A DNA stretch of 64,000 nt from Flavobacteriales bacterium (lineage in GTDB: Bacteria > Bacteroidota > Bacteroidia > Flavobacteriales_D > Crocinitomicaceae), in contig CANFRV010000012.1 in assembly GCA_947449575.1 (NCBI GenBank), positions 1-64,000 of the forward strand, read 5' to 3'. A program made the position numbers and the translations under genes. Positions 51,454 to 59,662 of the stretch are shown piece after piece; within the stretch, counting starts at the first letter, position 1; each line of letters starts with the position of its first letter. The notes below the pieces were generated by a model, which searched no databases, had not been told where the DNA came from, and saw only the letters and a program-made list of their open reading frames with translations.

Positions 51454-51837
51454 TTGAAAAAAAGAAGGAAAATACAAGTCAAGGTTTTATTTCTAGTGCT
51501 GATCTATTTGTTCAGCAGTAATCCTACTGTTTTATTCCATCATCACGATGCAGAAATCGTTAGCTTTGAGAAAGCCTCGTCTTGTGAAAAAGCGATTTAC
51601 TATTCAAATCATGCCGATAAATGCTCTCATACTTCTCATATCTCCAACACTCCGGAAAAATGCTTACTGTGTGACCTGCATGCCGTTTCTCCACATTCAT
51701 TTCTAGATTTTTTAAAGCAAAACATAGCGAAAGAGCAAACCAGTAAACCAGTAAATATTACTGAAAATTATGTTTACTGCTTTCCTTCTGATTTTACGAA
51801 TAAAGGTCCACCTTCTCTTTTATCTTTTTCCGTTTAA
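51454..51837 (+). CDS. Small His/Cys-rich membrane-anchored protein before a TonB receptor
   Basis: A 127-residue protein. A basic start (KKRRKIQVKV) leads to one hydrophobic helix (LFLVLIYLFSS), then HHHDAEI, CEKAIYYSNHADKCSHTSH, and CLLCDLHAVSPH. The clustered His and Cys suggest metal binding. No ATG exists in the frame; the TTG at 51454 is the only start that keeps the helix and follows a -7 element. It is 61 bases before the receptor, so they are probably one operon. The family is not named with certainty, but similar proteins sit in metal-uptake loci. Confidence 0.65.
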   Translation: MKKRRKIQVKVLFLVLIYLFSSNPTVLFHHHDAEIVSFEKASSCEKAIYYSNHADKCSHTSHISNTPEKCLLCDLHAVSPHSFLDFLKQNIAKEQTSKPVNITENYVYCFPSDFTNKGPPSLLSFSV

Positions 51838-51898
51838 TTTTCTCTCAGGGCAATTTCTTGTCCTGACTAGTCATTTATACATTTTCAAAAAAATAAAG

Positions 51899-54313
51899 AT
51901 GAAAGTAAAAATCTTTTATAGTCTCGTTATGTTTTTTTTCATAACGAATAATGCTATAGCACAATATACAATTACGGGTACTATCCAAGACGAGCAAACA
52001 AACGAATTTTTAACAGGCGTTGCTGTATATATTAACGACCTAAAGATTACGACCTATACGAATCAGGAAGGTAAATTCAAATTTGAAAATATTACAAAAG
52101 GGAATTATCTCCTTGAAGTAAGTGTAGGAGGATACAAAAAAAGAGTTGAAAACAGACAAATTAGCCAAGATACAGTAATCGATTTTCTATTAGCGGAATC
52201 TGTATCAGAACTAAATGAAGTGGTAATTACTGCAGTTTCCCGTTCTACTGAATTAAAATTAAGTCCAATTATTATAAAACCAATCGATATTGGACTTCTC
52301 AATCAAAACAGTTCAACGAATTTGATCGATGCTTTAAAAAATATCCCGGGTGTTAGTCAAATTACTACTGGCGCGGGAATTTCTAAACCAACCATTCGCG
52401 GTTTAGGCTACAATAGAGTAATTTCTCTGTACAATGGTATCCGCCAAGAAGGTCAACAATGGGGTGATGAACATGGTATTGAAATAGATGAATATTCAAT
52501 CGAAAGAATTGAAATTGTTAAAGGACCGGGCAGCTTAATGTATGGTTCGGATGGCATTGCTGGAGTTTTAAATTTTATTTCGCCCAAAGCACCGCAAGTA
52601 GGAAAGATAAAAAGTCAACTTATTTCCAACTATCAAAGTAATAATAATTTAATCGGTAATTCCTTTTCAACTGCAGGCAACAAAAATGGCGTTCAATGGC
52701 TTGCTCGTTTCAGTAACAAGTTTGCAGGAAATTATCAAAACAACTATGATGGAAAGGTTTTTAATTCTGGATTTCAAGAAGTTAATGGGGGACTTTTTAT
52801 AGGTGTAAATAAAAAATGGGGCTATTCACATGTCAATATAAGCACTTACAATTCTATCATAAATATGGTGGAAGGCGAAAGAGATAGTGTAGGAAATTTC
52901 ATCACTGATATTCCAGATGGAACTGGCAGTACAACCAATATATCAGCGAAAGAACTTTCGTTAAACATTTATAACATTGGGTTTCCACATCAAGAAATAA
53001 ATCACTTCAGAATTCTCACAAATCATTATTTTATTTTAAAAAAAGGGACTATTAACTTCGACGCTGGTTTCCAAAATAACAAAAGAAAGGAATTTGGAGA
53101 TATTGTCAACCCAGAAGACAAGGCATTGTTTTTTGACTTAAGCACCTTCAACTATAATTTGAAATATAATTTCGTTGAAATGAAAGGATGGGAAAGTTCA
53201 ATAGGTATTAGTGGGATGCAACAAAGTAATCTGAACAAGGGATTAGAATTTTTAATTCCCGAATACGCTCTTTTTGACATTGGAGGATTTTTATTTACAC
53301 AGAAAACATTTAAAAAATTAACATTCGCAGGCGGTGTAAGATTTGACAACCGAAACATCAATGCAAAGGAATTAATTGTAGACAATGTAGGACTTCCGGT
53401 AAACACTGAGAATGACTCCACAAGTATAAAATTTAAGCAGTTCAATAATAATTACAACAGCTTTTCGGGAAGTATTGGATTTTCATATCAAATCAAAAAG
53501 AAATCCACCATTAAGTTAAATTTTTCCAGAGGATTTAGGACTCCTAACATTGCTGAAATTGCATCCAATGGTCAGCACGAAGGTACTTTAAGATTTGAAT
53601 ACGGTTCTCCCAATTTAAAATCAGAAATTAGTCACCAAATTGATCTTGCTTATTTTTTAAACTCTGACCACGTTACTTTTGAGCTCACTCCTTTTACAAA
53701 TATTATTTCCAATTACATTTTTTCAGAAAAACTCCCAAGTGTATTCGGTGGTGATTCCATACCCGACCCTTCGAATCCTTCTCCAGCATTTAAATTTACG
53801 CAGGGAAACGCAACGTTAATTGGGGGTGAAATCTACCTCGATGTGCATCCTCATCCATTTGATTGGTTGCATATTGAAAACTCATTTTGCTTTGTTCAGG
53901 CTACTCAAAAAAACCAACCTGACAGCACAAAATACTTGCCTTTTATTCCTGCACCAAAGTACAGAGGAGAGTTGAAAGCACAATTTAAAAAAACAGGTAA
54001 AAAATTATCCAATACCTACGTGAAAGTTGCGGTTGACATGTACTTTCAACAAAACAAGTATTTCAAAGCGTATACTACAGAAACCGCGACACCATCTTAC
54101 ACATTATTAAGTGCTGGAATTGGTGGAAATATAAAAGCGTTTGACAAACCTAATTTTATGAGTATTTATGTAAGCGCTGAAAACTTAACGAATGCTTCGT
54201 ATCAAAGTCATTTGAGCAGGTTGAAATACGCTCCTCAAAATATGTTAACCGGACGAACTGGAGTCTACAATATGGGGAGAAACTTTAGTTTTAAAGTAAT
54301 CTTTAACCTATAA
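51899..54313 (+). CDS. TonB-dependent outer-membrane receptor, probably for a metal
   Basis: An 804-residue receptor. Signal residues 1-22 (NAIAQ) precede a carboxypeptidase-regulatory-like domain (YTITGTIQDEQTNEFLTGVA), the plug (NLIDALKNIPGVSQITTGAG, then KPTIRGLGYNRVISLYNGIR and QWGDEHGIEIDEYSIERIEI), and a beta-barrel ending FSFKVIFNL. The frame is open to an ATG at 51770, but ATG 51899 gives the signal peptide. The plug type (GQQWGDEHG) is close to metal-type receptors, and the His-rich neighbour supports zinc, copper or iron. The ligand is inference. Confidence 0.9.
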   Translation: MKVKIFYSLVMFFFITNNAIAQYTITGTIQDEQTNEFLTGVAVYINDLKITTYTNQEGKFKFENITKGNYLLEVSVGGYKKRVENRQISQDTVIDFLLAESVSELNEVVITAVSRSTELKLSPIIIKPIDIGLLNQNSSTNLIDALKNIPGVSQITTGAGISKPTIRGLGYNRVISLYNGIRQEGQQWGDEHGIEIDEYSIERIEIVKGPGSLMYGSDGIAGVLNFISPKAPQVGKIKSQLISNYQSNNNLIGNSFSTAGNKNGVQWLARFSNKFAGNYQNNYDGKVFNSGFQEVNGGLFIGVNKKWGYSHVNISTYNSIINMVEGERDSVGNFITDIPDGTGSTTNISAKELSLNIYNIGFPHQEINHFRILTNHYFILKKGTINFDAGFQNNKRKEFGDIVNPEDKALFFDLSTFNYNLKYNFVEMKGWESSIGISGMQQSNLNKGLEFLIPEYALFDIGGFLFTQKTFKKLTFAGGVRFDNRNINAKELIVDNVGLPVNTENDSTSIKFKQFNNNYNSFSGSIGFSYQIKKKSTIKLNFSRGFRTPNIAEIASNGQHEGTLRFEYGSPNLKSEISHQIDLAYFLNSDHVTFELTPFTNIISNYIFSEKLPSVFGGDSIPDPSNPSPAFKFTQGNATLIGGEIYLDVHPHPFDWLHIENSFCFVQATQKNQPDSTKYLPFIPAPKYRGELKAQFKKTGKKLSNTYVKVAVDMYFQQNKYFKAYTTETATPSYTLLSAGIGGNIKAFDKPNFMSIYVSAENLTNASYQSHLSRLKYAPQNMLTGRTGVYNMGRNFSFKVIFNL

Positions 54314-54333: not shown

Positions 54334-55371
54334 CTAGTTGTCAAGAATTGATATTTTTCTTACTATTCTATTTTTCGTATTCGAAATTTCAATAAAAAGT
54401 ACACTTGCCTCAAACTTTGAAATATCAATTATTTTTGAAGTTTGAGGCACCTGTTCTTCATACACAACTTTTCCAGTCATGTCAAATAATCGAATCAAAC
54501 TTTCATTTGGTATAGAAACTGTAATACTTTCAGACGCTGGATTAGGAAAAATAGTAACCATTATTTCTTGCTCACTTATCGATAAAGGCGCCTGATGAAT
54601 TACTGCAACTCCATCAAGATCAAATCCTCCAGCGGCAAATTCTGTAGGGTATAAATCATTAATGAGATGTCCTTGGGAATCCATACTGCCAAAGATCGGA
54701 TCAATTGTTCCAATTACATCGATAATTTTTACATGGGTAACATTTGAAATATCCAATCCTGAAATACTTGCTAACTCATTTAAATCAAATGGAGTTCCAA
54801 AACCTTGTCTATACTTCCCCGCAAGATTATTGAAATAGCGACAATCTGTAAAATCAAAAGTACCGGTTTGAACAATAAAAGGTGCCTCACTTATGCATGG
54901 AAATCGAAAAAATTGAATACCATCCGAACTAACTTCAACAAAGGCTAATTCAATAAAATTGTCTGTAAATCCATTTTCAAAAATTGCAAAATCAGGACCA
55001 ATTTCATCCTTAATTCCTCTATCAAACGTTAAAACTGCCACTCCTGAATCTCCAATAGATACAACATTTGTACTATTTCCTTCTGCTGGTCCAATCGCTT
55101 CAGCATCTAACCCAAAAGAGGCTAATCCTGAAGATGGATTGGCAATGTTCATATATCCACGCTCAATTGAAACACCTGTAGCCCAAGCCACAATAATGGA
55201 TGAGTCATTCCGAATCGCTGTCGTTCCTGTAGTTCCTGGCACTGAGGCAAATGTTTGAGAATAACATCTTGTACTGAATTTACAAAGTCCGATAACTGAA
55301 ATTATCAGCGAAAAAGCGAAAGTTTTAACAATCGAATAATATTGTTTCTTATTGTCTTTGTTTTTAGTCAT
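54334..55371 (-). CDS. Unrecognised surface protein with T9SS tail in the B12 operon
   Basis: A 345-residue protein, last in the B12-type operon. The signal is long and starts at ATG 55371 (MTKNKDNKKQYYS), 8 bases inside the end of the propeller gene; a TTG at 55380 is a less likely start. The body is a beta domain (VAWATGVSIERGYMNIANPS, GPDFAIFENGFTDNFIELAF, VEVSSDGIQFFRFPC, GGFDLDGVAVIHQ) with two Cys 22 apart. The last 75 residues are a T9SS CTD (VTIFPNPASESITVSI, LFDMTGKVVYEEQ). Family name not known to me; operon position implies a B12-related surface role. Confidence 0.8.
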   Translation of the reverse strand: MTKNKDNKKQYYSIVKTFAFSLIISVIGLCKFSTRCYSQTFASVPGTTGTTAIRNDSSIIVAWATGVSIERGYMNIANPSSGLASFGLDAEAIGPAEGNSTNVVSIGDSGVAVLTFDRGIKDEIGPDFAIFENGFTDNFIELAFVEVSSDGIQFFRFPCISEAPFIVQTGTFDFTDCRYFNNLAGKYRQGFGTPFDLNELASISGLDISNVTHVKIIDVIGTIDPIFGSMDSQGHLINDLYPTEFAAGGFDLDGVAVIHQAPLSISEQEIMVTIFPNPASESITVSIPNESLIRLFDMTGKVVYEEQVPQTSKIIDISKFEASVLFIEISNTKNRIVRKISILDN

Positions 55372-56422
55372 AAAAAACAATATTATTTGGATTTAACCCC
55401 ACGTGATAACTCGTTTCATATACGCCTGAACTTGAAAAAACACGGACATAGCCTGTATTTGAAAATCCCATTGCATCAAAACAATAAATTTTAGAATTGG
55501 AAGGTCTATATTTCACACCAAACAATGTGGTAAATTGACTGTTATCAATCAAGGACGGATTTGAAATGGTCTCAGAAACGGCATCAAACAGCGCAATATT
55601 ACTTGTAGATGTTGCATAATTATAATTACTAATCAGTAAGTTATCGCCCATTTTTTCTATTCCTGATGCCTCAAAAGGAAAAGTTGTTTCGACAAGATCT
55701 GTCACTGAATTAATTCGAACCATACGCGAAGGAATTGTTGAATAATTTCCTCTCGTAATCACATAAACATCTCCCTGAGAATCAGTGACAACTTTACCTG
55801 GATTTTTACCTACCGTGATTTTTTTTATTTCAGATAAACTACTCAAATTAATTACTGAAATAGTTGAATCTACATTTGGCGAATTTAACCCACCAGAATT
55901 GGATACATACAATTTGTTATTAGAAACAGATAAACCTTCTGGATTTGATCCAACTGCAATTCTTTTCGTAATACTTAAACTGGCTGTATCAAGAACATCT
56001 ACAAATCCATCATAACAGGTAATAAATGCTTTCGAACCATTAAAAACAATTGATCTTGGCTGCTTGGCTATGCTTCCATTCATCATAGAAATTTGTTTAA
56101 TAGAGGCTCCTGTTGCTTTATCCAAAACTTCTATCGTGCTGGAAACGTTTACAACTAAGTAAATTTTTCCTCCATATTCTTGCATGTCATTTCCTGTATC
56201 CCCCAAAAGTCGACTCGTTTTATTTGTGAAAAACAGATCATCTGAGCCTCCACTGGTAAAATCAACCCATGAAATTGTTGAATTATTTTGCTGAAAAAGT
56301 CCTTCACAGAGCACCAACATTCCATTCTTCATGACAGCTGGTGAAGTAGCAGATTGACACATCTGTTCTCGCTTACAGCCTGCGAATAGCAAGATTACTA
56401 AAAGAATTTTAATTGATTGCAT
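55364..56422 (-). CDS. btuG: BtuG-like beta-propeller lipoprotein (YncE fold)
   Basis: A 352-residue lipoprotein (signal ending LLFAGC). The body is a 7-bladed YncE/BtuG-type propeller with repeating blades, for example DTASLSITKRIAVGSNPEGL, SVSNNKLYVSNSGG, SSLSEIKKITVGKNPGKVVT. BtuG lipoproteins of Bacteroides sit on BtuB and bind B12 with very high affinity; here the place right after btuB and under the same riboswitch supports that role. It overlaps btuB by 14 bases. Sequence identity to BtuG was not tested. Confidence 0.78.
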   Translation of the reverse strand: MQSIKILLVILLFAGCKREQMCQSATSPAVMKNGMLVLCEGLFQQNNSTISWVDFTSGGSDDLFFTNKTSRLLGDTGNDMQEYGGKIYLVVNVSSTIEVLDKATGASIKQISMMNGSIAKQPRSIVFNGSKAFITCYDGFVDVLDTASLSITKRIAVGSNPEGLSVSNNKLYVSNSGGLNSPNVDSTISVINLSSLSEIKKITVGKNPGKVVTDSQGDVYVITRGNYSTIPSRMVRINSVTDLVETTFPFEASGIEKMGDNLLISNYNYATSTSNIALFDAVSETISNPSLIDNSQFTTLFGVKYRPSNSKIYCFDAMGFSNTGYVRVFSSSGVYETSYHVGLNPNNIVFYD

Positions 56423-58385
56423 AACTCAAAGTAATTAAATAATTTCTTCCTGGCATTACAAAATAGCGCATGTATGCGTAAGAACTATTAAAAATATTTT
56501 TGACGGATAATTGAATTCTAAGAGCATGTTTCACAGGCAGTTTAATTTGCGTGAATAAGCTCACATCCATAATCGCGAAACCATCAATTTTATTAGCAAT
56601 TATGTTCTCAGTTAAGGAATAACGAAGCGAAGAAAGGGTAGTAGAAAAATGGATTCCTGTCTTTTTTCGCTGTATCGTAGCATCAAAATTTCCAATATGC
56701 CTTGGAATGTAAGCAACTTGATTCAAATATGTTGGAGAGTGTGAATCGGACACATCCACCGAATATTGATAGGTATAATTCATCGTAAAATTCGTCGTCA
56801 ATCTATTGCTATGTAGCGTATTGATTTGCATTCTTGATTCAAAACCAAAGGTATTTACGAAACCAATATTTTGCATCGACCATACAAATAAATTTTTAGT
56901 GGGAATTGCTAAAATTTGATTTTCCACACGATTTGCAAAACCATTGACAAGTATATTTAGTTTTGAATCTCCTTCAAGCGGACGAGCAGAAATACCAAGT
57001 GAAAATTGATGTGCTTGCTCTGGTTTTAACTTCGTATTTCCTACTCCATTATAATATAATTCATTGAAAGAGGGCATTCTGAAGGAGTTACGATACCATG
57101 CTTTCAAAATCCATTTCCATTTTCCAAATTCAACTTTTTCAAGGGATAAAAATGGATTTACCTTCAAACGATTTTTTGCTCTTTCTCCTTGATCATTCTC
57201 TTCTATAATTTGTTGAGCAGAAATTTGAACTTCTGATTTCCATGTTTCTCGATTTAAATTCAAGCCAATTAATCCAAAAGTATGAAGTCTTCTAGGAGCT
57301 GCAGTATTCAATGTTGAAAATGTTAAATCACTATACTTAGTTTCTAAACCGCCAAAAAAGGCAGAACTGTTGAGCAGTAATCGTTGAAAAGAAATTCCGC
57401 CTTGATATAAATTATTGGTATAAATAGCTGAAATCCCTCCCGTATTATTCAAAAAATAAGGGTCTGTATAATGCAACCAATCATGATTATAACTTCCAAA
57501 TAATCGATAAAAAAGCATTTTATACGTTTGAGAATAATCGATATTAACGACACTCGCTTGCGCAGATAATCTTTGATTAGCCGTTGTATTATATAAAATA
57601 ATAGCTCCAGGCAAACCTTGGTCGGCACTATTGGTTCTACAAATCACTCGCAATCGCCCTTCCTTTTTCAATCTGAATCCGACAGTAAATCCTGAATACC
57701 AATCTACTAAATCATTATTATCTCGAATTCCGTTGTACGTTGTTTTTCCATTTTGAATAGAATAAGGGTATTTTCCATTGGCGGAACGATACTTTCCGAA
57801 TACACTCATAAACATCTTTGCTTTCCCATATTTTAGCGAAATATAATTGTCTATTTCACCGAATGATCCAACCTTAGAGGATAATCTCATTTTAAATGGG
57901 TCCGTCGAAAAATTATTTTCAAACGTGTTCACAGAGACTGTACTTCCGTTAATATAGGATGATGGAGATAACAAAAATCCATTCTTGCCACCGACACTTA
58001 AAGTGATGGATTCTACATTATCCGTCTGTATTTGTCCTAAATTAATCTGACCTGTTTGCGTGTTTGAAATAGAGAATCCATCGACAATAAACGTAGTATG
58101 TTGACTTCCCAAACCTCTCACAGATACTGTTTTTAAACCTCCTACTCCACCATAACTCTTTAAGGTTGTACCTGAGAATTTTTGGATTATTACACCTAAA
58201 TCTTCTGGCTGTGTCAATATAATTTGTTCTCGATTGAAGGTCTGTGAGGTGAGATCTAATGTCTTTAATCGATTAATTTCTAAAGCAGAAACACTCACTT
58301 CTGGTAATGAATTGATTGTATCTTGTCCATATCCTAGCATACAAACAAGAAATAAATTAAGAACCAAAAGTGAATATCGCATCAT
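56409..58385 (-). CDS. btuB: BtuB-like TonB-dependent cobalamin receptor
   Basis: A 658-residue outer-membrane receptor. Signal residues 1-20 (ending MLGYGQ) are followed by a TonB-box-like start (TINSLPEVSVSALE), the plug (LGVIIQKFSGTTLKSYGGVG, VSVRGLGSQHTTFIVDGFSI) and a barrel ending RNYLITLSYAIN. The short plug without a carboxypeptidase-like domain fits BtuB. The cobalamin riboswitch upstream gives the ligand. Its ATG overlaps the stop of the DUF4465 gene by 1 base. Confidence 0.88.
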   Translation of the reverse strand: MMRYSLLVLNLFLVCMLGYGQDTINSLPEVSVSALEINRLKTLDLTSQTFNREQIILTQPEDLGVIIQKFSGTTLKSYGGVGGLKTVSVRGLGSQHTTFIVDGFSISNTQTGQINLGQIQTDNVESITLSVGGKNGFLLSPSSYINGSTVSVNTFENNFSTDPFKMRLSSKVGSFGEIDNYISLKYGKAKMFMSVFGKYRSANGKYPYSIQNGKTTYNGIRDNNDLVDWYSGFTVGFRLKKEGRLRVICRTNSADQGLPGAIILYNTTANQRLSAQASVVNIDYSQTYKMLFYRLFGSYNHDWLHYTDPYFLNNTGGISAIYTNNLYQGGISFQRLLLNSSAFFGGLETKYSDLTFSTLNTAAPRRLHTFGLIGLNLNRETWKSEVQISAQQIIEENDQGERAKNRLKVNPFLSLEKVEFGKWKWILKAWYRNSFRMPSFNELYYNGVGNTKLKPEQAHQFSLGISARPLEGDSKLNILVNGFANRVENQILAIPTKNLFVWSMQNIGFVNTFGFESRMQINTLHSNRLTTNFTMNYTYQYSVDVSDSHSPTYLNQVAYIPRHIGNFDATIQRKKTGIHFSTTLSSLRYSLTENIIANKIDGFAIMDVSLFTQIKLPVKHALRIQLSVKNIFNSSYAYMRYFVMPGRNYLITLSYAIN

Positions 58386-59347
58386 TATTTAATGATATTC
58401 TGAATAAAAAATCCCTTTTCATTCGTGATCTTCATAGTATATGACCCACTGGACAAGTTAGAAACTTCTATAGTGGTAGCCCCTGAATAGTAAGAAGTTA
58501 GCACACTCTTTCCTGCCACATCATAAATTTCAATGATCCCAGATTCTCCTTTGACATGCAATTGATCTGCCATTGGATTTGGATAGACTGTAATTCCTGA
58601 AATCGTGTTTTCTGAAAGTCCTGTGCTCTTATTAATCGTCAAATTATCAATCGCAAAATAAGCTGGGGTATTCATGCCAAAGTCTCCATTATCAGACGAT
58701 TCAAGTAAAAAAGATATCGAATACACCTTTTCCGTAATAAAGGATAAATCTATAGAATGCCATGTATTTACAATGTAATCTTGTGCATCATCGGTGAAAC
58801 GAAAATCTGCTAAATAAAATTCTACTGAGTCAATTTTTCTTCCGTTCTCGGCATGAGCGAAGATCCACACTTTGTAATAATCTTCTCCATTGGTGCCATC
58901 TGTAATTCCATTAGCATCAGTGAGGGATCCAAATTTCTTACTATATGTATCTCCATCTCTCATCGAAATAGCGGTAAACGTTGTATTTGTAATTTCAAGT
59001 GAATCCAAATCAACTCCTTGACTAGCAAATGAAATTGTCCCAGCTGGATAATAAACGGCATAATTCGACGAGCCTGAGCCAGAACCCGCGAATGCACTAT
59101 ATTGATTCAAATATCCAGGGGTTGTGACATCCGTCATATTCGAAATCGCAAAACCATTCCATGAGTCCCAACTAGAATTATAATCATTTGAAAAAACTAC
59201 TCCATTCTCAATAAAACCGCCAGAACCTGAAGATCCATAATTAAACGATTCTGGTGCTAAAATAACACCTTCGAACCCAATAGTCTGTTGAGCATGCATG
59301 AAAAGTGTTGTGAAAATTGTAAAAACTGAAAAATAAATTTTCTTCAT
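58385..59347 (-). CDS. DUF4465 protein with T9SS type A sorting domain, BtuH-like
   Basis: A 320-residue protein, first gene after the cobalamin riboswitch. The signal ends LFMHAQ. The DUF4465 domain (residues about 25-240) shows YGSSGSGGFIENGVVFSNDY, SWDSWNGFAISNMTDVTTPG and YLNQYSAFAGSG. The last 75 residues are a T9SS CTD (GITVYPNPMADQLHVKG, IYDVAGKSVLTS, SSGSYTMKITNEKGFF). In gut Bacteroides, BtuH proteins are B12-binding surface lipoproteins, and as I recall they carry DUF4465. Here the lipid anchor is replaced by T9SS export. Homology to BtuH was not tested. Confidence 0.85.
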   Translation of the reverse strand: MKKIYFSVFTIFTTLFMHAQQTIGFEGVILAPESFNYGSSGSGGFIENGVVFSNDYNSSWDSWNGFAISNMTDVTTPGYLNQYSAFAGSGSGSSNYAVYYPAGTISFASQGVDLDSLEITNTTFTAISMRDGDTYSKKFGSLTDANGITDGTNGEDYYKVWIFAHAENGRKIDSVEFYLADFRFTDDAQDYIVNTWHSIDLSFITEKVYSISFLLESSDNGDFGMNTPAYFAIDNLTINKSTGLSENTISGITVYPNPMADQLHVKGESGIIEIYDVAGKSVLTSYYSGATTIEVSNLSSGSYTMKITNEKGFFIQNIIK

Positions 59348-59464
59348 AACTTTAATTATTACTAAAATAAATAAAAATGAAGATTTCAGTTCAAGCCAAG
59401 CATGTCTTTGAACCTAGGAATACAAAAGTATATCCGACTTTTATCTGAAGTCTTCAACAAATAA
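59348..59464. other. Leader between the riboswitch and the B12 operon
   Basis: About 117 AT-rich bases of 5' leader with no clear frame. No second stem-loop of terminator type is evident, so control may be at translation start. Confidence 0.4.
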
Positions 59465-59625
59465 CAACCTTGGCAGGTATTCTGACTCTCATCAACTCGA
59501 TTTCGTCTTCCCAGTTTTTACACCAGTGACATAGTAAAATCGATATTACGATGATTACAGCTGCAGACACAGTTTCGGATTTACACCGAATTCCCTTTTA
59601 TTCCACGCAGTGGTACCATAAATCT
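59465..59625 (-). ncRNA. Cobalamin riboswitch
   Basis: Read on the minus strand the conserved boxes come in order: GGGAATTCGGTG (59595-59584), then CTGCAGCTGTAAT (near 59565), GTCACTGG with a stem-loop, CTGGGAAGACG (59514-59504, the B12-box region), and AGTCAGAATACCTGCC (up to 59472). This order and spacing are specific for the cobalamin class. Ligand binding would turn off the downstream DUF4465-btuB-btuG operon. Confidence 0.93.
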
Positions 59626-59629
59626 AGTG

Positions 59630-59662
59630 TAAAGATAGTGTTTAGATTGCAATCACCTCCAA
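59630..59662 (-). promoter_or_regulatory. Promoter of the riboswitch-controlled B12 operon
   Basis: On the minus strand TTG (59662-59660), 22 bases, TATCTTTA (59637-59630), a one-mismatch -7 element, immediately upstream of the riboswitch. Confidence 0.5.

Follow-up and report, generated by a model that had tools for sequence, protein, structure and literature searches.

Organization of the locus

The window analysed in this study is a 64,000-nucleotide (nt) stretch of DNA from a Flavobacteriales bacterium of the family Crocinitomicaceae (assembly GCA_947449575.1, contig CANFRV010000012.1, positions 1 to 64,000), and the system in question is a four-gene operon predicted to capture vitamin B12 (cobalamin). 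The four genes all lie on the minus strand, 3' of a cobalamin riboswitch, in the order J, B, G, Q (Table 1). Neighbouring genes overlap by 1 nt (J/B), 14 nt (B/G) and 8 nt (G/Q), and 107 bases separate the riboswitch from J. Judged by sequence, the operon is riboswitch - btuJ - btuB - btuG - btuH-like, in which the BtuJ and BtuH-like proteins carry tails of the type IX secretion system (T9SS) and BtuG is a lipoprotein. The original prediction, made from the letters of this stretch, had described four tightly overlapping genes with a BtuB-like receptor, a BtuG-like lipoprotein propeller and T9SS tails on two of the three accessory proteins, in a lineage other than Bacteroides. All of these points were borne out, and the named contigs of relatives place the lineage in Crocinitomicaceae.

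Table 1 Features of the B12 capture operon and its convergent neighbour.
Feature	Position	Strand	Evidence or composition
Cobalamin riboswitch aptamer RF00174	59455-59635	-	87.9 bits, E 2.4e-20, model 1-189/189 (cmscan)
Candidate regulatory hairpin GACUU-CAGAUAA-AAGUC, directly 3' of the aptamer	59436-59452	-	Recurrence in the leaders of relatives
btuJ-like gene J	58385-59347	-	Signal peptide (by eye), DUF4465 domain 58640-59173, type A T9SS sorting domain 58391-58588
btuB-like TonB-dependent receptor gene B	56409-58385	-	PF07715; 8blw_A (BtuB1) E 3e-81
btuG-like beta-propeller lipoprotein gene G	55364-56422	-	PF16819; 8blw_B E 8.2e-66; lipobox LFAG/C16
Q gene	54334-55371	-	Signal peptide (by eye), btuH-like core 54574-55260, type A T9SS sorting domain 54346-54552
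TonB-dependent receptor gene, outside the operon	51770-54313	+	Carboxypeptidase-like N-terminal part (by eye)

Translation of Q most likely starts from the ATG at 55371 and probably not from the listed TTG at 55380, since the ATG gives the overlap with G that is seen likewise in relatives such as L033-L035.

Cobalamin riboswitch and leader

A cobalamin riboswitch had been predicted at the operon head. The covariance-model check supported it with a full-length match to RF00174 (87.9 bits; cut-off 31.5) and moved the start of the aptamer from 59662 to 59635. This is the sole RF00174 match detected in the genome. Of the 35 genomes with DUF4465, the domain of J (the own genome and relatives), 34 have a riboswitch immediately before the DUF4465 match; the riboswitch of one genome, G009, scores 28.6 bits and falls under the Rfam cut-off. 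The 35th genome, G056, has its riboswitch at the operon head, upstream of btuB. The presence of a riboswitch before DUF4465 in 34 of 35 genomes indicates that the pairing of riboswitch and operon is not a matter of chance.

Of the 35 leaders that precede DUF4465, the window's own included, 34 contain by plain count a 5-pair hairpin with a similar loop and varied stem letters. The loop letters across the leaders are CAGAUAA or UCGGGAUAA-like. This hairpin, 3' of the aptamer, may be the kissing-loop hairpin through which this riboswitch class regulates. Folded as a whole, the leader was not clearly more stable than shuffled sequences (z -1.22).

J is a member of the BtuJ family

Protein J matches PF14717 (DUF4465) with E 5.8e-47 and 160.7 bits against a cut-off of 25. 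Its tail matches PF18962 (Por_Secre_tail, E 6.1e-13) and TIGR04183 (E 9.5e-11); with the latter model the tails of J and Q score 41.5 and 34.2 bits, respectively, against a cut-off of 23. The nearest solved structures are PDB 9qpm (E 2.7e-21) and 9fct (E 7.7e-21), and 9hmu was also matched; all three are DUF4465/BtuJ proteins. The HI-loop motif GMNTPAYF (NTPAY) is present in J and includes the B12-binding Tyr of the family, here Tyr230. This Tyr is invariant in all 28 DUF4465 members of Crocinitomicaceae, the window's included. J is thus like the DUF4465 family (IPR027828, BtuJ) in its domain, in its loop motif with the binding Tyr and in its neighbourhood; by sequence, it is a BtuJ family member. 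Eight DUF4465 proteins, one of them from Fluviicola taffensis, bind B12 according to the available text of Clarke et al. 2026 (PMC13398666). Because other members of the family were tested by others, B12 binding by J is, by analogy, very likely.

The DUF4465 protein had originally been read as BtuH. This assignment was rejected: BtuH2 (7biz) belongs to another family, and the BtuH profile gives no match to the DUF4465 profile (P 0.32); the BtuH domain itself has no Pfam match. The relative of BtuH in the operon is the fourth protein, Q, which had been left as unknown, and not the DUF4465 protein.

Two further domain arrangements were observed among the DUF4465 proteins. In one 682-aa (amino acid) protein (L119:262-2307, genome G542), DUF4465 (PF14717 E 6.5e-48) occurs together with a BtuH-like domain and a T9SS tail. 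A 571-aa frame (L064:4609-6294, genome G026) holds an apparent tandem pair of DUF4465 domains, seen as several matches, and a T9SS tail.

B and G resemble the receptor and lid of BtuBG

The nearest solved relatives of B and G are BtuB1 and BtuG1 of Bacteroides thetaiotaomicron. B matches BtuB1 (8blw_A) with E 3e-81. With TIGR01779, the equivalog model of the B12 TonB receptor, B reaches 90.4 bits (E 1e-25), far under the cut-off of 599.7. The model presumably rests on proteobacterial BtuB, and B is therefore named BtuB-like. G matches BtuG1 (8blw_B) with E 8.2e-66 across residues 35-352, and PF16819 with E 2.2e-13 and 50.4 bits against a cut-off of 27.2. A pattern match places the lipobox of G (LFAG/C) at residue 16. 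Across the 24 Crocinitomicaceae loci where G was seen, 22 of the G proteins were scored as lipoproteins, and none of the 24 has a T9SS tail.

Q is a remote relative of BtuH

The T9SS tail of Q matches PF18962 with E 9.2e-11, and it is the only part of Q with a convincing match; no convincing Pfam or solved-structure sequence match was found for the core. A match of the core to 3-hydroxyisobutyrate dehydrogenase (E 0.0019) was taken as chance because it covers 53 residues of an unrelated cytoplasmic enzyme. The other sequence matches were weak and partial, with E of at least 0.46 in one search and at least 0.02 in another.

For profile comparison of the core, the BtuH seeds were taken from G294, which appears to be a Bacteroides-like genome, and consisted of a BtuH2-like domain (P0005; 7biz E 3.8e-123) and the H domain of a fused BtuG (P0006). 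The BtuH alignment of 27 domains was built from single matches of 200-330 residues. The profile of 32 Q cores matched the 27 BtuH domains with P 4.3e-6 and probability 87% over 49 aligned columns. Against single BtuH sequences the match was weak (probability 0.9% and 22%), and it became clear only with the BtuH alignment and with bridging homologues.

The bridges are 20 diverged relatives of Q. They match Q with P 5e-25 and BtuH with P 1.6e-11 (probability 97%, 97 columns), and Q and bridges together match BtuH with P 1.1e-10 (probability 97%, 120 columns). In the controls, reversed BtuH gave P 0.18, and the best of 50 column-shuffled BtuH alignments scored 20.0 against 78.7 for the true one. 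Q and bridges gave P 0.25 and 0.36 with the DUF4465 and BtuG profiles. They also matched the T9SS tail profile (P 3e-5); as Q without the bridges reached only 0.046, this match was ascribed to leftover tail columns in the bridge rows.

When 395 genomes of the phylum were searched with the Q core, 52 gave matches at E <=0.01, the own genome included; the six weakest (E >1e-4) may be chance. Many of the remaining matches belong to other classes and are diverged relatives; at 17 of 21 such loci, a neighbour matched the BtuB or BtuG profile within the stretch examined, where these profiles may also catch other TonB receptors and propellers.

Conserved residues were compared with BtuH2 of B. thetaiotaomicron locus 2 (PDB 7biz), the solved reference for Q. 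The accessible text of PMC8941943 names Asn399 of BtuH2 as a contact of the B12 phosphate and places Phe401 beside the lower ligand. With numbering deduced from the construct, these two residues are the N and F of GNAF in the 7biz chain. Q has a similar motif, DF-x-x-F-E-N-x-F with small variations, in which the Asn is present in 32/32 Q (the window's included) and in 20/20 bridges; an aromatic residue follows at +2 in 29 of the 32 Q. In the BtuH alignment this column holds N in 24 of 27 domains, a count taken from the alignment column since a pattern-based count (13/27) misses true cases. Gln333 of BtuH lies in PAPGQ, and many Q begin with the similar APAPG or APAAG, with a variable Gln position.

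The gene order agrees with this relationship. BtuG1 of B. thetaiotaomicron is a G-H fusion (PMC10404256, in the text available), and G followed by Q is the same order of modules; a G-H-like fusion was also seen in L079. In the structure comparison by VIA-align, the model of the Q core ranked 7biz first of 897 chains (Z 7.3; root-mean-square deviation 4.4; 145 residues aligned; chain 317-592), with a Z below 8, which can reflect merely a common arrangement. This ranking is counted as support and not as proof because the model is weak (predicted local distance difference test, pLDDT, 50), the Z is below 8, the next row has 6.4, and Foldseek gave no match. Taken together, the profile matches, the ranking of 7biz, the kept Asn and the G-H order lead us to class Q, at the level of sequence and model, as a BtuH-superfamily protein. 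B12 binding by Q is plausible only.

Several relatives of Q were found in other settings. In Paenimyroides baculatum (L037, NZ_VWSG01000001.1), a Q with a T9SS tail stands without DUF4465, BtuB or BtuG by profile within about 8 kb. The Q of L032 (CAMDAO010000143.1), a contig labelled as part of a Chryseobacterium gleum metagenome-assembled genome, is 96% identical to the window's; this label is probably wrong because the next nearest named relatives are Crocinitomicaceae. Two loci of another class (L158:5697-11745 and L159:2474-8825) hold, head to tail, btuB, a btuG lipoprotein gene, genes for a second propeller-like protein and for Q, both T9SS-tailed, and a gene resembling CobO (cobalamin adenosyltransferase, named by eye). 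No relative of Q was confirmed in viral contigs.

T9SS tail and lipobox as putative alternative surface anchors

A survey of T9SS tails in DUF4465 proteins, which the original prediction had proposed, was carried out by Pfam. Among the complete DUF4465 proteins, the tail was found in 26 of 28 from Crocinitomicaceae and in 9 of 13 from outside this family. The remaining two Crocinitomicaceae proteins, both in one genus (G012 and G034), and the remaining four outside (G294 twice, G301 and G376) have a lipobox by pattern. Overall, 35 of 41 carry the tail, six a lipobox and none neither, in a sample that is uneven and comes mostly from the window's own family. Similarly, a T9SS tail was found by Pfam on 31 of 32 Q. 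SprA, the T9SS component searched for in the own genome, scores 2372 bits with TIGR04189 against a cut-off of 200. J and Q thus have the marks of type A T9SS cargo, namely the sorting domain, an N-terminal signal (by eye) and SprA in the genome; the export itself is predicted.

A phylogenetic tree of 44 DUF4465 domains gave at least two changes of anchor (the fewest possible being 3, with 2 forced by well-supported branches and 2-4 over the bootstraps). The lipoprotein pair of one genus nests inside the tailed Crocinitomicaceae members, with some long branches unsure. The tree omits L033, L059 and L064 and adds L034, L035, L038 and L119; its warnings concern long branches (L080, L079, L119, L082) and odd composition (L053, L069). 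These changes indicate that the anchor was exchanged while the DUF4465 domain stayed.

The typical BtuH domains in the order of G294 showed a mixture of anchors. Among 30 frames, 8 had a T9SS tail by our own profile, 15 a lipobox by pattern and 7 neither, some of the last being pattern misses, such as L091, a fused BtuG with a likely lipobox. When 10 BtuH frames were checked by Pfam, a T9SS tail was seen in 5, with 4 over the cut-off.

The possibility that a lipobox on DUF4465 is a mere mark of T9SS loss was also considered and is not supported, as G012, G034, G301 and G376 have both SprA and a lipoprotein DUF4465. Of the 29 genomes tested for SprA, G294 and G286 gave no match.

Distribution and cell context

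Among the window's relatives, 35 of 59 genomes carry DUF4465, against only 11 of 392 in the phylum at large, 9 of them over the cut-off; the own genome is counted in these tallies and in that of the Q core. The order J-B-G-Q was observed in 22 of the 23 Crocinitomicaceae loci holding all four genes, and J-Q-B-G in one. The J-B-G-Q layout is therefore the rule in Crocinitomicaceae and not peculiar to the window genome. The following were left out of the counts: L059 (gene cut at the contig end), L086 (G133, a 1866-aa frame), G070 and G364 (below cut-off), L085/L165 (G286; DUF4465 missed by the profile, the L165 frame being lipoprotein-like by eye), partial second matches in G019 and G026, and the named-contig copies L033-L035 and L038, all of them tailed. 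L033 and L065 are the same genome.

Genes for MetH (891 aa), the large subunit of methylmalonyl-CoA mutase and an IcmF-like fusion mutase, named by eye, are present in the genome. CbiC was not found in the genome; it was the one B12 synthesis gene searched for. Because CbiC was not found, synthesis of the ring is unlikely. As far as gene content tells, the genome fits a B12-dependent scavenging cell.

Next to the operon, 20 bases lie between the stop of Q and the end of the convergent TonB-dependent receptor gene.

Comparison with known systems

Locus 1 of B. thetaiotaomicron (BtuK1-K2-H1-B1-GH-J1; PDB 8blw, 9fct) resembles the operon in having a cobalamin riboswitch, BtuB with a BtuG lid, and BtuJ/BtuH modules. 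The two differ in the anchors, as BtuJ and BtuH are lipoproteins in B. thetaiotaomicron, whereas their counterparts here are T9SS-tailed. They also differ in arrangement: the BtuH domain is fused to BtuG1 in B. thetaiotaomicron, whereas the BtuH-like Q is separate and very diverged. For the BtuK proteins of that locus no counterpart was recognised here, where no search was aimed at them. The available text of Clarke et al. 2026 (PMC13398666) predicts a lipoprotein share of more than 70% for DUF4465 proteins and assigns periplasmic targeting signals to the remainder. In contrast to this lipoprotein majority, our uneven sample is mostly T9SS-tailed. The words "secretion" and "sorting" do not occur in the main text of that paper, in the version available.

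Flavobacterium psychrophilum offers another flavobacterial TonB receptor behind a cobalamin riboswitch, THC0290_1776, which is described as riboswitch-controlled in the available text of PMC9723704; T9SS-tailed accessory proteins are not mentioned for it there. Among the matches listed in a literature search covering few subscription journals, no title or abstract opening joins T9SS to B12 capture proteins. PMC12578637 and PMC12016528 treat both subjects without joining them in the parts available. The uptake system itself is known already; what is new here is its T9SS-tailed variant and one newly placed protein family, Q.

Proposed working of the operon and alternatives

The operon is, in our assessment with high confidence, a cobalamin-repressed operon for B12 capture at the outer membrane, of the BtuBG type, with T9SS-exported BtuJ and BtuH-like proteins. 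Under low cobalamin, the riboswitch would permit expression of the operon, as is expected from its family. B and the lipoprotein lid G would form the outer-membrane transporter, by their similarity to the solved BtuB1G1 of B. thetaiotaomicron. J and Q would cross the outer membrane via the T9SS through their C-terminal sorting domains, and may stay on the surface or be partly released. There they would catch cobalamin and presumably hand it over to BtuG, in place of the lipoproteins BtuJ and BtuH of gut Bacteroides. The imported vitamin would then serve MetH and the two mutases. The idea of B12 "piracy", raised by the original prediction, is supported by nothing found in this analysis.

Several observations weigh against this proposal or parts of it. 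The sole strong FecCD-type importer of the genome (C33) lies beside ATPase-like and lipoprotein-like genes and has no riboswitch. In G012 and G034, DUF4465 is a lipoprotein despite SprA, and therefore the tail is not indispensable. For Q, the BtuH match is limited to the N-terminal 50-120 residues, and the ring contacts of BtuH (Tyr510, Trp511, Trp577 and His476) lie outside the aligned part. The window's Q has Thr at the position of Gln333. AlphaFold modelled Q poorly (pLDDT 53 and 50), and with the weak core model Foldseek gave no match at E <=0.001 and no BtuH among the best 50 rows. Finally, BtuL and BtuK2 of B. thetaiotaomicron, encoded in such operons, did not bind cobalamin according to the text available of PMC12751083, so that position in the operon alone is no proof of B12 binding.

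The last points bear on the role of Q, which may instead have a structural or docking function within BtuBG and bind no B12 itself. This is possible, though doubtful: the BtuH site is only partly kept in Q and the precedent of BtuL and BtuK2 speaks for it, whereas the Asn corresponding to Asn399 of BtuH2, which contacts the B12 phosphate, is kept throughout Q and the bridging relatives. It is unlikely, in turn, that J and Q are released to the medium as soluble traps that diffuse, bind B12 and return, as a protein analogue of a siderophore. T9SS cargo can be either released or anchored (PMC10202324, in the text available), and vesicles of B. thetaiotaomicron bearing BtuJ have been likened to siderophores in the accessible part of PMC12751083. 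However, released traps would presumably benefit competitors, BtuG remains a lipoprotein, and the two relatives of one genus that hold DUF4465 by a lipobox indicate that holding it on the surface works there. It is very improbable that the operon imports another metal chelate or a cobamide fragment and that the riboswitch merely ties it to the B12 pool. The choice of substrate is not readable from sequence, and the low TIGR01779 score of the receptor leaves room for such a substrate; yet the nearest solved relatives of J, B and G all bind or transport B12, and the genome has B12 enzymes and no CbiC that could be found.

Meaning for B12 capture in Bacteroidota

A broader reading, which we regard as a serious possibility somewhat short of probable, is that Q represents an as yet unnamed, phylum-wide branch of the BtuH superfamily and a standing partner of BtuBG. 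T9SS export would then be common and perhaps older; the lipoproteins of gut Bacteroides would be a special case, the two Bacteroides-like genomes tested having given no SprA match; and the share of DUF4465 proteins described as periplasmic would be surface-exposed or secreted in Bacteroidota.

The surface capture of B12 was worked out in gut Bacteroides, and the capture proteins studied there are lipoproteins. Under the proposed BtuBG-type capture by T9SS-exported proteins, another family of the phylum would export the same modules by a different route, and the exchange of anchors is visible within that family. This questions the view of non-lipoprotein DUF4465 proteins as periplasmic and gives a likely identity to the Q protein family, the core of which is absent from Pfam. 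It also opens to test whether capture proteins need tethering near BtuBG.

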